This document shows positions 7,576 through 19,601 of a DNA stretch of 20,567 nucleotides, one piece after another. Source of the stretch: a virus; the IMG/VR virus record IMGVR_UViG_3300045051_000947, positions 1-20,567 of that record; one strand, 5' to 3'. The first letter of the stretch is position 1. Every line of letters starts with the position of its first letter. Under the pieces are notes generated by a model that did no database searches, was not told where the DNA came from, and worked only from the letters and a program-made list of their open reading frames with translations. Position numbers and translations under genes: made by a program.

Positions 7576-7823
7576 TTTTTACCCTTTTGAACAACCGTTG
7601 AATGTTTAACCTCTTTTTTTGCCGGAGGTTCCTTTACTGGTTCCTTTACTGGTTCCTTTACTGGTTCCTTTACTGGTTCCTTTACTGGTTCCTTTACTGG
7701 TTCCTTTACTGGTTCCTTTACTGGTTCCTTTACTGGTTCCTTTACTGGTTCCTTTACCGAAGTAACTGGAATTTGATTATATATCCCGGTGATCGGGTCC
7801 CTCACGATAGTATAACCATTCAT
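7572..7823 (-). CDS. Small protein with eleven VKEP tetrapeptide repeats (83 aa)
   Basis: The protein has three parts: a 22-residue head (MNGYTIVRDPITGIYNQIPV plus TS), eleven perfect VKEP repeats (residues 23-66), and a Lys-rich tail (PAKKEVKHSTVVQKGKK). Alternating Lys/Glu with a Pro every fourth residue predicts an extended, charged rod rather than a helix. Function is unknown. It lies between the Lys-rich 56-aa gene and the adaptor gene, with an ATGA overlap into the adaptor, so it may be a minor virion or assembly protein. The opposite strand also reads open through the array (FLYW repeats) only because the 12-bp unit contains no stop in that frame. Confidence 0.75.
   Translation of the reverse strand: MNGYTIVRDPITGIYNQIPVTSVKEPVKEPVKEPVKEPVKEPVKEPVKEPVKEPVKEPVKEPVKEPPAKKEVKHSTVVQKGKK
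7627..7758 (-). repeat. 12-bp minisatellite, 11 copies
   Basis: GGTTCCTTTACT (plus strand) is repeated head to tail eleven times with 12-bp period. Only the last copy differs, ending TTTACC. The unit is in frame and codes for VKEP. Confidence 0.97.
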
Positions 7824-14666: not shown

Positions 14667-17033
14667 TTACCAAGCCCCCCGGAAATTTCTACTGGCCATG
14701 ATATCGGAAACGGATTTTACCGGTTTATTTTGTCTCGCCTTGAACATAATTGTAGCGGGGTATTGGATAGCATCATGAATATGTGAGTATTCATTTTTGG
14801 CCGGTTCGGTACGGAAAACACCGCTATTACCAATCTCCGGGTAGGCATAACCCCCATCAAAGCCATCAATAGTCATGGTACAGGAATGATCAATAAGCAA
14901 AGCAGGTTCACCATTGATGAGTTTTGACAGACGTTCGGCAACAGACTCCCTTCTCACTTTGAAAGTCTGTATCCCTTTTATTATATTAATAGTTTTACCA
15001 TACTCTTTAGCCTTTTCCTGTATATATTGTGCCGGGGTCTTTTTCACAGAATCCCTACCCTGCGACCCTGCGGGGTCCCCAATGTCCTTAAAGGTGCATT
15101 TAGCATGAAGGTTCATGTTGCACCAGACGACCATCTCCTCTGTAGCATCCATGATCCCCGTAGCATCTTCCCACGTGAATTCTTTAAAAAGATTCCACTG
15201 GCCGGTGGGACCCACATAGGTGAGGATAATAGCTGGACTCAAGCCAGTGTTATCCCACCCCCTGATAATTTCACAAGGTCCTACCGGCTTCAAAGGGGCC
15301 TTGGACACGTGCAGACTACGTTTAAACTCTGGGTAGACCGGCTTTCCCGCCACAGTAATACCCCAAGTGCCCTGTACAAGGGTCTTAAGCAAATCGGGGC
15401 GATCAGCGTAGTCCTTGGCCAGATCCTCATAATACCCCGGCCTAAGGTTGTGCTTATTCTCCTCTTGGCCCTGTTCATAAATAGTATACCCCTCAACGGG
15501 GTTAGAAACAAAATCCTTATATAACCAGTGTTGAGTACTAGGATAGTTTGTGGACAATATAACCTGCGGTGGGGACAGGAAAGGGTTTTTACCCTGTGTG
15601 GATTTCATAGACGGATAGCGGCCTACACGACCAAGCAGACCTTTAACCACATCTGCATGAATTTCTCGTGCTTCATCAACATGGGCACCAGTGAGTTCCA
15701 GTGAGAGTAGGTCACGGACATCCTTCGGATTGTCCAAAGCCTTGAAAATAATCTCGATTTCCCGGTCTTCATAACTTATTTTATATATTTTATCAGTTTG
15801 GTTATAATTACCGAAGATGTTTGTGGGGAACCAGTCAAAATATGATTTTATGGTGGTGTCTCGTAGTTCCGGATAAGTATTTCGTACCACGGCAAAACGA
15901 CTTCTCCGCTTACCCATTACAGGCAAGACCCGTTTACTGGCCATTTCGATGAGGTCGAAAGCACTAGAAGACGTTTTTCCAGTGTTTCCGGTAATAAAGA
16001 CCCTGCCGTTTCTACGGGCCACAAAAAACCCCGTAGATGATTCGAAACAATACTTATAACCATCCACAGAGGGTTTTATATTTATTTTAGAACCTCTAAT
16101 GGTGGTCATCTGATTTCTCTGGTTCGCATATAACCTGTAGACATCTTTCCAATTAGTCTGATGGGGTTTAGTGTATTTCACTCTATTGATCGTAGCCCTA
16201 CAGTTTTGCGTGGCACAGACGTACTGGATAAAATCCGCGTTGGTTGCAACAGTAGTAGAGAATATTTTGCCGCCGTAATTATCAACACAACCGTCCCAGT
16301 GAGGCCATTCATCGTGGATGATGACTAGTTGTTCCGGGGTTGCCTCTATATATTTCCACAGATCCTTATTTTCTTCCGGGGCAAAAAAACATAACCTGAA
16401 TTCTGCAGGTCTTGTAGGAGATACAAACTCGTCCCATCTGATATCACACCTAGACAACAATCCCCGTAACCTTTCGATTTTTCTCTGTTTTCTAAGTGTA
16501 ATTATACACTTACGTTCGGCGGCCCCAACTGCAAAACAACCATCGGCAGAAATGGCCACCATCAACCGTAACTCATCATCACTTAAATTTATACCATTAG
16601 TATTACCAGCACCAAAAGTGGTCGGGAATCTACCATCGAAACCACCCTTCAATTCTTGGTGACTTTGATACAAATCAAATGCCTTGATGGTTTTCCAATC
16701 ACCCGGTTTGTTTTTTAGATCATATAACACCGTATGTTCGGGGGACAACATCTGATCCACGCGGCTATTAAATAGGTGGAAAAATTCTTTACATGGTAAT
16801 TTTACATAATTTTTGGGTTTTCGCCACTCAATTTTGTCGGTACCGATATTGTATTCGGCAACAATATCCCCATCCTGCCATTCATCGAAACTAATCCAAC
16901 CACGTTTCGACAAATACTCAGTGTATTTATCCAGACACCCAAATGGACCGATCAGGAGCTTTACGCGGCTTGAAATATCGGCATGGAAGTCTCTGGCTAC
17001 CGGTCCACAATTATAAGTCAGATCATAAATCAT
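14667..17033 (-). CDS. terL: Terminase large subunit (TerL) interrupted by an intein
   Basis: The frame encodes 788 residues; removing the intein (33-350) leaves 470, a normal TerL length. The ligated exteins restore a Walker A loop, GPFG plus TGKTS. Further TerL marks are Walker B with catalytic acid (HVDEARE, Asp453/Glu454), a coupling segment VILSTNYPS (491-499), and the RNase H-like nuclease with Asp593 (GWDNTG), acids near 650-653 (FKDIGDPAG) and Asp754 (HIHDAIQY). TerL cuts concatemeric DNA and pumps it into the head through the portal. The unspliced precursor has no continuous P-loop, so ATPase activity should need protein splicing. The start is the last of six CTTAATG copies in the repeat array upstream, has GGAGG before it, and overlaps the stop of a 14-codon leader frame. 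Confidence 0.93.
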   Translation of the reverse strand: MIYDLTYNCGPVARDFHADISSRVKLLIGPFGCLDKYTEYLSKRGWISFDEWQDGDIVAEYNIGTDKIEWRKPKNYVKLPCKEFFHLFNSRVDQMLSPEHTVLYDLKNKPGDWKTIKAFDLYQSHQELKGGFDGRFPTTFGAGNTNGINLSDDELRLMVAISADGCFAVGAAERKCIITLRKQRKIERLRGLLSRCDIRWDEFVSPTRPAEFRLCFFAPEENKDLWKYIEATPEQLVIIHDEWPHWDGCVDNYGGKIFSTTVATNADFIQYVCATQNCRATINRVKYTKPHQTNWKDVYRLYANQRNQMTTIRGSKINIKPSVDGYKYCFESSTGFFVARRNGRVFITGNTGKTSSSAFDLIEMASKRVLPVMGKRRSRFAVVRNTYPELRDTTIKSYFDWFPTNIFGNYNQTDKIYKISYEDREIEIIFKALDNPKDVRDLLSLELTGAHVDEAREIHADVVKGLLGRVGRYPSMKSTQGKNPFLSPPQVILSTNYPSTQHWLYKDFVSNPVEGYTIYEQGQEENKHNLRPGYYEDLAKDYADRPDLLKTLVQGTWGITVAGKPVYPEFKRSLHVSKAPLKPVGPCEIIRGWDNTGLSPAIILTYVGPTGQWNLFKEFTWEDATGIMDATEEMVVWCNMNLHAKCTFKDIGDPAGSQGRDSVKKTPAQYIQEKAKEYGKTINIIKGIQTFKVRRESVAERLSKLINGEPALLIDHSCTMTIDGFDGGYAYPEIGNSGVFRTEPAKNEYSHIHDAIQYPATIMFKARQNKPVKSVSDIMASRNFRGAW
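15984..16937 (-). mobile_element. Intein with LAGLIDADG-type homing endonuclease, in TerL Walker A
   Basis: The 318-residue element runs from Cys33 to Asn350 of the TerL frame. Splicing blocks are visible: N-terminal Cys, block B MLSPEHTVLY with His100, and a C-terminal VARRNGRVFITGN followed by Thr (+1). The middle is LAGLIDADG-like: LRLMVAISADG (155-165, Asp164) and a weaker second motif LVIIHDEWPHWDG (236-248, Asp247), followed by IFSTTVATNADFIQYVCATQ, typical of this endonuclease class. Deviations: Ser instead of Thr in block B (SPEH), and Gly instead of the usual penultimate His. Both occur in some active inteins. The element should splice itself out and may home into intein-less terL alleles. 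Confidence 0.93.
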
Positions 17034-17197
17034 TAAGCCTCCATCGATAAGTCATTAAGTCCCCATCGGTAATTCATTAAGTCCCACCCACAACCCCGTC
17101 AGTAATTATTCTGAGGCCCTTCTTCACCCCGTCAGTAATTCATTAAGCCCCACCCACAACCCCATCGGTAATTCATTAAGCCTCCATCGGTAATTCA
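17034..17197 (-). repeat. Nested 22/33/66-bp repeat array of the TerL start junction
   Basis: CTTAATG (minus strand) occurs six times, with its ATG first bases at 17198, 17176, 17143, 17077, 17055 and 17033. The spacings are 22, 33, 66, 22 and 22 bp, all multiples of 11. The units share the start AATTAC(C/T)GA(T/C)GG and the end CTTAATG; the 66-bp unit also repeats the end of the upstream gene (KKGLRI-TDGVVGG coding). Short overlapping frames chain through it: 24 codons from ATG 17198 to TGA 17124, 16 codons from GTG 17127 to TAA 17077, 14 codons from ATG 17077 to TAA 17033, then TerL at 17033. Confidence 0.92.
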
Positions 17198-17665
17198 TTA
17201 AGCCCCACCCACAACCCCGTCAGTAACTATCCTGAGGCCCTTCTTCACCCCTTTGGCGGGAATGACCTTATCTTTCACCGCCTGACCAGAGTATCTGTAT
17301 GCTATGTTGGTGCCTCTACGTAATACCCGGTCTAGCAATCTAGGCTGGTGACCCTCTCTCACCATGGAAGATACATACCCCAACTCAGCGACAAGTTGGG
17401 ATAAAGTTTTGATCTTCGCCTTTATCCGGGCAATTTCAGCATCATAATGTTCAGCAAGGGCGGGGAGAAGATGCGTAGGCACTGGATTCCCCTTGGAGGC
17501 CATGATCTTGGCCCGATAGGCGGGATCTTTCCATTTCGCCTTTTGCCTGTTGGATACTTCTTCCCGATAAGCGGGGTCCTTCCACTTTTCCTTCATCCTT
17601 TTACTGGATTTATCTCTGGCAGAACCCGGTTCTGCCTTTTTTAATTTACCGATCCGTATGCCCAC
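17198..17665 (-). CDS. KWKDPAYR-repeat, NUMOD3-like DNA-binding protein (155 aa)
   Basis: Residues 20-60 hold two copies of a basic aromatic helix motif: EKWKDPAYREEV (26-37) and AKWKDPAYRAKI (43-54), 17 residues apart, preceded by SSKRMK. This arrangement resembles the NUMOD3-type DNA-binding repeats found in phage GIY-YIG and HNH homing endonucleases, but no nuclease domain is present. The rest has a helix LAEHYDAEIARIKAKIKTLS and a basic end (RVLRRGTNIAYRYSG; KKGLRIVTDGVVGGA). I chose GTG at 17663-17665, eight bases after GAGG. A TTG at 17687-17689, directly after the TerS stop, would add eight residues. Its 3' end is partly copied in the repeat array downstream. Function unknown; it may be a homing-endonuclease remnant or a packaging accessory factor. 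Confidence 0.65.
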   Translation of the reverse strand: MGIRIGKLKKAEPGSARDKSSKRMKEKWKDPAYREEVSNRQKAKWKDPAYRAKIMASKGNPVPTHLLPALAEHYDAEIARIKAKIKTLSQLVAELGYVSSMVREGHQPRLLDRVLRRGTNIAYRYSGQAVKDKVIPAKGVKKGLRIVTDGVVGGA

Positions 17666-17689
17666 AATTCTACCCTCAGCTGACCACAA

Positions 17690-18277
17690 CTACTCTAACT
17701 GGCCCTCAATCACCTGACCCTCAATGATAGGGGTGGCCACATTACTCTGGATTCTTATGGTGACCTTGTTATTAATTTCGCTGATGGTCTTGTCGGCAAA
17801 CATGGCCATAGTCTTACCAATCAATTCCAGACCACGAAGGGCATTACCGGCATCCATCTTATCCGTATCCATACACCGTTCCACCACTTCCCGCAAATTT
17901 TGCATGACCCACTTCTGGTCCATATCGGCAGCGCGGGCAATGGCTACGGCCTTTTTCCGGATCGCGGCCTGTACTGGTTTCCGTTGCAGGAAACCCTGCA
18001 CAGTAGTCCCTTTGATTTCTAGTACCTGTGCTACTTTTTTCTTATCAAAATTAGCTTTAACATACTCCCGCACAAATACTTCTTCCCGGAGTGTTAAGGG
18101 CTTTAACTTAAGATACCTGACTAGTTTTTGACCATAGGTTTTGCTGTTGGGATCAGTGTCGGTATACTTTTCAGTTTTTTCTTCTGGAGCGATCGTCTCA
18201 TCAAGAAGCCAATCGCCTCCGCTGCACCAAAGCACACCTGAGTCTTCCACCCCAGACTGTTCAATATCATCAGACAT
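17690..18277 (-). CDS. terS: Terminase small subunit (TerS) (195 aa)
   Basis: Residues about 57-108 form the usual TerS helix-turn-helix: PLTLREEVFVREYVKANFDK, then VAQVLEIKGTTVQGFLQRKP and VQAAIRKKA. Helices after it (WVMQNLREVVERCMDT, NALRGLELIGKTMAMFA) would be the oligomerisation core, and the C-terminus (VIEGQVIEGQLE) could contact TerL or portal. TerS recognises the phage pac/cos site and starts packaging. AAGGAG lies 8 nt before the ATG, so the start is well supported even though 157 nt of the gene lie inside the VRR-NUC gene. There is no later in-frame ATG, GTG or TTG before the HTH. The first 56 residues are acidic and low in order. Confidence 0.85.
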   Translation of the reverse strand: MSDDIEQSGVEDSGVLWCSGGDWLLDETIAPEEKTEKYTDTDPNSKTYGQKLVRYLKLKPLTLREEVFVREYVKANFDKKKVAQVLEIKGTTVQGFLQRKPVQAAIRKKAVAIARAADMDQKWVMQNLREVVERCMDTDKMDAGNALRGLELIGKTMAMFADKTISEINNKVTIRIQSNVATPIIEGQVIEGQLE

Positions 18278-18588
18278 TCACTTTGCTCCTTGCTCACTCT
18301 TGAGGGTGTGGTTAACCGGCCTGACTTACCCACCATTTTTATACGCTTTAATTCTATGGCTATATTTTCTGGTCCCGGTATAATGAAGTCTGGGGCACCT
18401 TTTACCATACCCATACGTTTCAAAAGCACAGCCTGACCTACACTACGTTGACCCTCATTCGGTATATGTATAAAAAACACACCATGTTTGTTGAGCCAGT
18501 CACACAAAATCAAGTGTTCCTCCAGTTCTAGAGGAACTTTCGCGGATGTGGATTTGGTTGTAGCCTTCGTTGCAGGGGTAATTTTCAC
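18121..18588 (-). CDS. VRR-NUC domain nuclease (155 aa)
   Basis: The sequence covers a complete stand-alone VRR-NUC fold: LELEEHLILCDWL (20-32), VFFIHIPNEGQRS (37-49), GQAVLLKRMGMVKGAPDFII (51-70), IAIELKRIK (76-84), SKEQSECLMILNSLGWKTQV (99-118) and GAAEAIGFL (121-129). Catalytic PD-(D/E)xK residues are Asp67, Glu79 and Lys81, with Gln102 in the expected helix. Such proteins are Holliday-junction-type or structure-specific nucleases, and phages often place them near terminase, where they may clear branched DNA before packaging. ATG overlaps the NUMOD3 gene stop (ATGA). The last 52 codons overlap the TerS start in another frame. Confidence 0.88.
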   Translation of the reverse strand: MKITPATKATTKSTSAKVPLELEEHLILCDWLNKHGVFFIHIPNEGQRSVGQAVLLKRMGMVKGAPDFIIPGPENIAIELKRIKMVGKSGRLTTPSRVSKEQSECLMILNSLGWKTQVCFGAAEAIGFLMRRSLQKKKLKSIPTLIPTAKPMVKN

Positions 18589-18866
18589 AAAACCCCCACC
18601 AAAGTATCAGAAATTATGTCCTCACCCTCTGATTTGAGTCTTTGCAATTCAAGGAACATTTCCATTTCCTTCTCCTTGAGCCTTTCTTGCATCATCCTAG
18701 TACGGGTGATGATTTTTTCTAATTTATCGGGTTTATTCAGGGAGGCAGAAATCTTCACCCTAATCTCTTGCGATAAACTTTTTCCTTTGTTCCATGGTTC
18801 TCTTCCCTTGGCCTTAGCAGAAATTTTTGCCTTGGTTTCATCACTGTGATTTTTGGGACCTCTCAC
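18585..18866 (-). CDS. NUMOD3-motif protein without nuclease domain (93 aa)
   Basis: I chose GTG at 18864-18866: GGAGG precedes it by 6 nt, while the more upstream ATGs lie in or directly beside the promoter -10 box. Two NUMOD3 helix units are clear: HSDETKAKISAKAKG (7-21), linker REPWNKGKS, and LSQEIRVKISASLNK (31-45). NUMOD3 is a DNA-binding motif of phage homing endonucleases. The rest is a charged coiled helix (RMMQERLKEKEMEMFLELQR) without GIY-YIG or HNH residues. It heads the packaging operon, so it might be a DNA-binding regulator or packaging factor, or the remnant of a free-standing homing endonuclease. Confidence 0.75.
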   Translation of the reverse strand: MRGPKNHSDETKAKISAKAKGREPWNKGKSLSQEIRVKISASLNKPDKLEKIITRTRMMQERLKEKEMEMFLELQRLKSEGEDIISDTLVGVL

Positions 18867-18885
18867 TGTACCCTCCATACTATTC

Positions 18886-18914
18886 ATTAAAGCACAAACA
18901 AAACCCCTTGTCAA
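18886..18914 (-). promoter_or_regulatory. Sigma70-type promoter of the packaging operon
   Basis: On the minus strand, TTGACA (18909-18914, perfect -35), a 17-bp spacer and TTTAAT (18886-18891, 5 of 6 to TATAAT). The expected transcription start is near 18878-18880, just ahead of the GGAGG and GTG of the NUMOD3 gene. Confidence 0.8.
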
Positions 18915-19248: not shown

Positions 19249-19394
19249 CATATTCTGTATACAGGGTCATCCCTATCTTGCCACATATTTTGTATACAGG
19301 GTCATCTTTTTCTTGTCAGCGAACCCGCATATTCTGTATGCAGGACCACCTTTTTCTTGTCAGCGAACCCATATATTCTGTATACAGGGCCACC
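19249..19394. repeat. Four iteron-like 23-bp repeats with GTATAC core
   Basis: Copies start at 19249, 19284, 19328 and 19372 (spacings 35, 44, 44). The common core is TATTYTGTATRCAGG with palindrome CTGTATACAG. Copies 2-4 are followed by TTTTTCTT then CAGCGAACC. One strand stays open through them by chance. Confidence 0.88.
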
Positions 19395-19459
19395 TTTTTC
19401 TTACCAGCGAACCACATTGGCGTACAAAAAAGAAAATGCGTCCAAGGGTGTACGGATAT

Positions 19460-19537
19460 GGTCAAAAAGGGCGGAAAATAGGTCAAAAATAGGTCAAAAA
19501 TAGGTCAAAAATAGGTCAAAAATAGGTCAAAAATGGG
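19460..19537. repeat. 11-bp tandem repeats GGTCAAAAATA
   Basis: GGTCAAAAAT begins at 19481, 19492, 19503, 19514 and 19525, exactly one helical turn apart, with a degenerate copy at 19460. This is typical of iterons bound by a replication or partition protein on one DNA face. Confidence 0.92.
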
Positions 19538-19601
19538 TGAGAAAATTTTTCGGCGGGTGATAACCAAAAGACAAAGGGTGGAGAAAATTTTTCGGCGGAT
19601 G
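19535..19601. repeat. AT-rich direct repeats GAGAAAATTTTTCGGCGG
   Basis: Two copies lie at 19539-19556 and 19581-19598, each preceded by GGGTG and followed by a TG-containing end. They directly adjoin the 11-bp array and could be the melting element of an origin. Confidence 0.85.

Follow-up and report, generated by a model that had tools for sequence, protein, structure and literature searches.

A 165-bp tandem array on the minus strand of a viral DNA fragment (20,567 nt, hereafter the window) carries an unbroken chain of three overlapping mini frames, which leads from the stop of an upstream gene with KWKDPAYR repeats into the start of TerL. We propose that the array is probably a near-neutral tandem expansion of an initiation junction, with TerL starting at its own site and the last mini frame helping locally. 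TerL has a strong ribosome site of its own, and the chain is missing from its closest relatives; the locus is therefore most likely to be a repeat of an ordinary kind, in which any translational coupling is local.

The array and its chain of mini frames

The features around the junction, in coordinates of the window, are as follows.

17690 to 18277, minus strand: likely small terminase subunit (TerS)
17198 to 17689, minus strand: upstream gene with KWKDPAYR repeats, no recognised catalytic domain
17034 to 17198, minus strand: 165-bp tandem array separating the upstream gene from TerL, with six units that are ATG-led or ATG-derived
17124 to 17198, minus strand: mini frame 1, ATG 17198, 24 codons (MNYRWRLNELPMGLWVGLNELLTG), TGA 17126-17124
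17077 to 17127, minus strand: mini frame 2, GTG 17127 in a GTGA overlap, 16 codons (VKKGLRIITDGVVGGT), TAA 17079-17077
17033 to 17077, minus strand: mini frame 3, ATG 17077 in TAATG, 14 codons (MNYRWGLNDLSMEA), TAA 17035-17033
17033 to 17044, minus strand: nested frame ATG-GAG-GCT-TAA, 3 codons (MEA), with the same TAATG end at TerL
17041 to 17130, minus strand: 90-bp block with 92% identity to 17162-17251, the copies lying 121 bp apart
14667 to 17033, minus strand: TerL, with a likely intein inside Walker A

The upstream gene stops in a TAATG at 17198, and TerL starts in a TAATG at 17033. Along the chain, the junctions are spaced by -1, -4, -1 and -1 nt, and the 1- or 4-nt stop/start overlaps of termination-reinitiation pairs are thus found at the array junctions. 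The stop of mini frame 3 overlaps ATG 17033 of TerL, and its 3' end contains the TerL Shine-Dalgarno GGAGG. An earlier note on this DNA had traced the chain of 24, 16 and 14 codons from TAATG 17198 via GTG 17127 to TAATG 17033, and all of these coordinates were confirmed. It had also named three array ATGs that do not feed TerL, which is borne out by their stops: the frames from ATGs 17176 and 17143 both end at 17134-17132, and that from ATG 17055 ends at 17025-17023. Its list of starts was right as given but missed the feeding frame at ATG 17044.

In array order, the units measure 22, 33, 33, 33, 22 and 22 bp; of the sizes reported in that note, 22 and 33 bp hold, whereas the third, 66 bp, is 33+33. 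The upstream gene's 3' end is present a second time within the array: its GGGGTGAAGAAGGGCCTCAG recurs in the first 33-bp unit of this pair, and mini frame 2 (VKKGLRIITDGVVGGT) therefore duplicates the C-terminus of the upstream protein, VKKGLRIVTDGVVGGA. The two copies of the 90-bp block differ at seven positions, none of them within any TAATG module. We count this sparing of every module against a neutral reading; by our own estimate, about one third of random seven-substitution sets would also spare all of them.

The repeat is far above chance, its motif count being matched in 0 of 100 shuffles. Within the 20.6-kb window the unit motifs cluster at 17030-17228 only, and the AATTACYGAYGGRG core is conserved in seven copies that are almost confined to the array. 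These core copies, the unit lengths in multiples of 11 bp and the position between the terminase genes, which makes the array a pac-like candidate, would fit a DNA-level site where the repeats bind the small terminase subunit or the KWKDPAYR protein. We regard such a site as quite unlikely: by our own arithmetic, 11-bp steps drift against the 10.5-bp turn of B-DNA, no inverted repeats were found in the array, and nothing alike is present in relatives. Helical phasing of the units was also rejected, since a turn of 10.5 bp does not fit evenly into 22 or 33 bp.

The chain departs only mildly from expectation

When the same units are reordered, the strict chain is kept in 48 of 720 orders, and the last link alone is present in 360 of the 720. 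Unit-resampled arrays of 3-7 units contain a chain in 6-14% of cases and Markov-1 random spacers in 3%. No chain built from ATG starts alone exists in the array; the GTG link is required. Against these nulls the chain, though unbroken, stands out only a little and is weakly informative.

A functional reinitiation relay, in which ribosomes would traverse the three mini frames into TerL and array length would set TerL output, appears unlikely to us. The exact spacings of the chain are those most used in coupling (PMC12548453), and the relay would have a bacterial analogue in the mycobacterial MIRUs, whose tandem copy number is variable (PMC9392950). However, a chain is expected in 3-7% of null arrays, a rarity that also speaks somewhat against the neutral reading, and three serial reinitiations should shed ribosomes at each step. 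Moreover, the strict chain does not survive if one 22-bp unit, whichever it is, is added or removed, although the TerL Shine-Dalgarno stays in place; the chain does survive when the second unit (33 bp) is lost or duplicated. It had been suggested that copy number could tune TerL synthesis. With the strict relay lost at every 22-bp change, copy number would act as an on/off switch for it and would not tune.

TerL has a strong initiation site of its own

Scored with the common bacterial anti-Shine-Dalgarno in place of one from the host, the GGAGG of TerL has a pairing energy of -9.3 kcal/mol, which ranks with the strongest in the window (5% cut-off over all minus-strand ATGs, -7.7 kcal/mol). The starts of mini frames 1 and 3 are weaker than the TerL site (-6.7 and -6.3 kcal/mol, respectively), and the GTG of mini frame 2 shows no Shine-Dalgarno pairing (+0.4 kcal/mol). 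The unpaired GTG and the strong TerL pairing both argue against a relay. Accessibility of the TerL site is ordinary, its occlusion not being above that of other genes. The RNA fold of the array region is no better than that of shuffles (z 0.5), no Rfam match to a structured RNA was obtained for the region, and a promoter was looked for inside the array and none was found. Nothing suggests that TerL depends on a delivered ribosome.

Coupling is best at spacings of -4 to +3 nt, with a share of the Shine-Dalgarno that varies (PMC12548453, PMC10666635, PMC6728339). In E. coli it acts locally, needing no more than the final 15 nt of the upstream frame and being reduced or abolished by a 38-nt gap (PMC10666635). 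By these published rules, local stop/start coupling from mini frame 3 to TerL at 17033 is plausible. Of the reinitiation into TerL that had been proposed, this local step may be retained; the full relay is not, its GTG being unpaired and the TerL site strong and of ordinary accessibility.

The closest TerL relatives lack the array

The closest TerL relatives are L105 and L106, at 64-65% identity, and L178, at 56%. Their TerL genes come from a pair of bacterial MAGs that belong to a single order, with Deltaproteobacteria in the title of one record. Array, upstream gene and intein are absent from all three, and their TerL starts are likewise TAATG; the N-termini of the relatives favour ATG 17033 as the true TerL start. 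In L105 and L106 the frame ending at TAATG has no start codon, and nothing feeds TerL. On the reverse strand of L178, a single 6-codon frame joins the gene upstream (ATGA) to TerL (TAATG), a short bridge that we also count against the neutral reading.

The earlier note had derived the array from an original direct TAATG overlap and had proposed comparing the locus in related phages. As the closest relatives have neither the array nor a shared upstream gene, and two of the three have no feeding frame, the ancestral direct overlap is unsupported and the relay is not conserved; what survives is the expansion of a junction.

We further surveyed 133 loci, where start choices were automatic and approximate: at 50 of them the TerL start lies within the end of the upstream frame, with overlaps of 4 or 1 nt (-4/-1), and at others it is spaced. 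None of the 133 loci has a comparable array at the TerL junction; L067 and L151 have tandem repeats upstream of TerL with different periods. Across 35 spaced TerL junctions, 5 chains were observed against 2.3 expected, four of the five being frames of 53-59 codons, and conservation of the relay over spaced junctions was rejected on these numbers. Also rejected was an array travelling with the homing-endonuclease-like gene, there being no array beside its relatives L002-L009.

Searches with the upstream protein, TerL, the repeat DNA pattern and the portal gave no close strains, the array DNA pattern had no exact match in viral contigs, and blastn of the region against phages returned chance matches only. 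Beyond the relatives at 56-65%, the host order (48 genomes) and phylum (395) gave only 35% TerL matches. An assembly artefact, with unit copy number or order misjoined from short metagenomic reads, would agree with an array known from a single record and with units shorter than typical reads. Yet the copies carry differing substitutions and the two flanking coding frames, upstream gene and TerL, are unbroken, and we judge an artefact very unlikely.

Comparison with known systems

A repeat with overlapping mini-ORF junctions already has a described analogue, the mycobacterial MIRU, which lies between co-oriented genes and has a small ORF overlapping the next start (PMC12548453). In the TerL array, too, a small ORF in the repeat overlaps the stop and start of its neighbours. 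In contrast, MIRUs are dispersed and apparently mobile, with 77 bp at senX3-regX3 and -4 nt coupling, whereas the TerL array is a single one, and its 22/33-bp units come from the gene next to it. Because no dispersed homologous copies were found within the 20.6-kb fragment or by the viral-contig pattern search, we do not class it as a MIRU. We consider it highly improbable that the array is a phage counterpart of the MIRUs whose count of 22/33-bp units determines whether ribosomes from the upstream gene pass in frame to TerL, as an on/off, length-variable control of the packaging motor.

In the bicistronic design of synthetic biology, a short leader cistron is placed ahead of the main gene. 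The array shares with it a short leader frame, a 3' Shine-Dalgarno and a stop at the start of the main gene, but is natural and repeated, and any enhancement of expression is putative. The TAATG (-1) and GTGA (-4) overlaps and the Shine-Dalgarno within the upstream frame are those of termination-reinitiation pairs (PMC6728339, PMC10666635); here, by contrast, the intermediate frames are chained, at 14-24 codons, and their coupling is putative. The gene order terS-terL-portal-scaffold-coat is that of P22-like podovirus packaging modules. In the P22-like VvAW1 terS and terL overlap directly, whereas here an additional gene and the array separate them.

A proposed origin by junction expansion

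In the expansion that we favour, the upstream gene, itself derived from a homing endonuclease, would have had its 3' end duplicated in tandem along with the adjoining Shine-Dalgarno/TAATG module. As most modules have an ATG and a Shine-Dalgarno, weak or strong, mini frames would arise automatically. Most TerL translation would begin afresh at the gene's own GGAGG, the last mini frame (17077-17033) would add local stop/start coupling like a bicistronic leader, and the three-step relay would be largely a by-product of unit lengths, neutral or nearly so. Tandem duplication at a stop/start overlap may thus yield chained mini frames under little selection, which cautions against taking such relays as regulation. 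A working relay would amount to a chained bicistronic leader found in nature, and to a switch on the packaging motor that is prone to slippage.

Mobile-element traces and other repeats

The KWKDPAYR repeats are of a DNA-binding type and make up the tails of homing endonucleases, GIY-YIG and others, in relatives (domain names read from the sequences). The gene shares its frame with the small terminase gene, a single TAG (17692-17690) lying between them, and therefore has no clear start of its own. The probable TerL intein spans 318 residues (33-350, C...GN/T), splits Walker A as GPFG/TGKT and shows a weak LAGLIDADG-like match; Walker A is a known intein insertion site (PMC5050341). A small NUMOD3 gene at 18585-18914, without a nuclease domain, is likely a homing endonuclease remnant. 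With the KWKDPAYR gene, the NUMOD3 gene and the TerL intein, the packaging region therefore holds several mobile-element traces.

Tandem repeats make up 3.5% of the window against a median of 0.4%, a level reached by 4 of 84 related loci. As the window is rich in tandem arrays, slippage expansion needs no special cause. A small gene contains a 12-bp repeat coding for KEPV, in eleven perfect copies at 7627-7757, and two arrays, with periods of 44/22 and 11 bp, lie at 19281-19546 in a region poor in clear genes.
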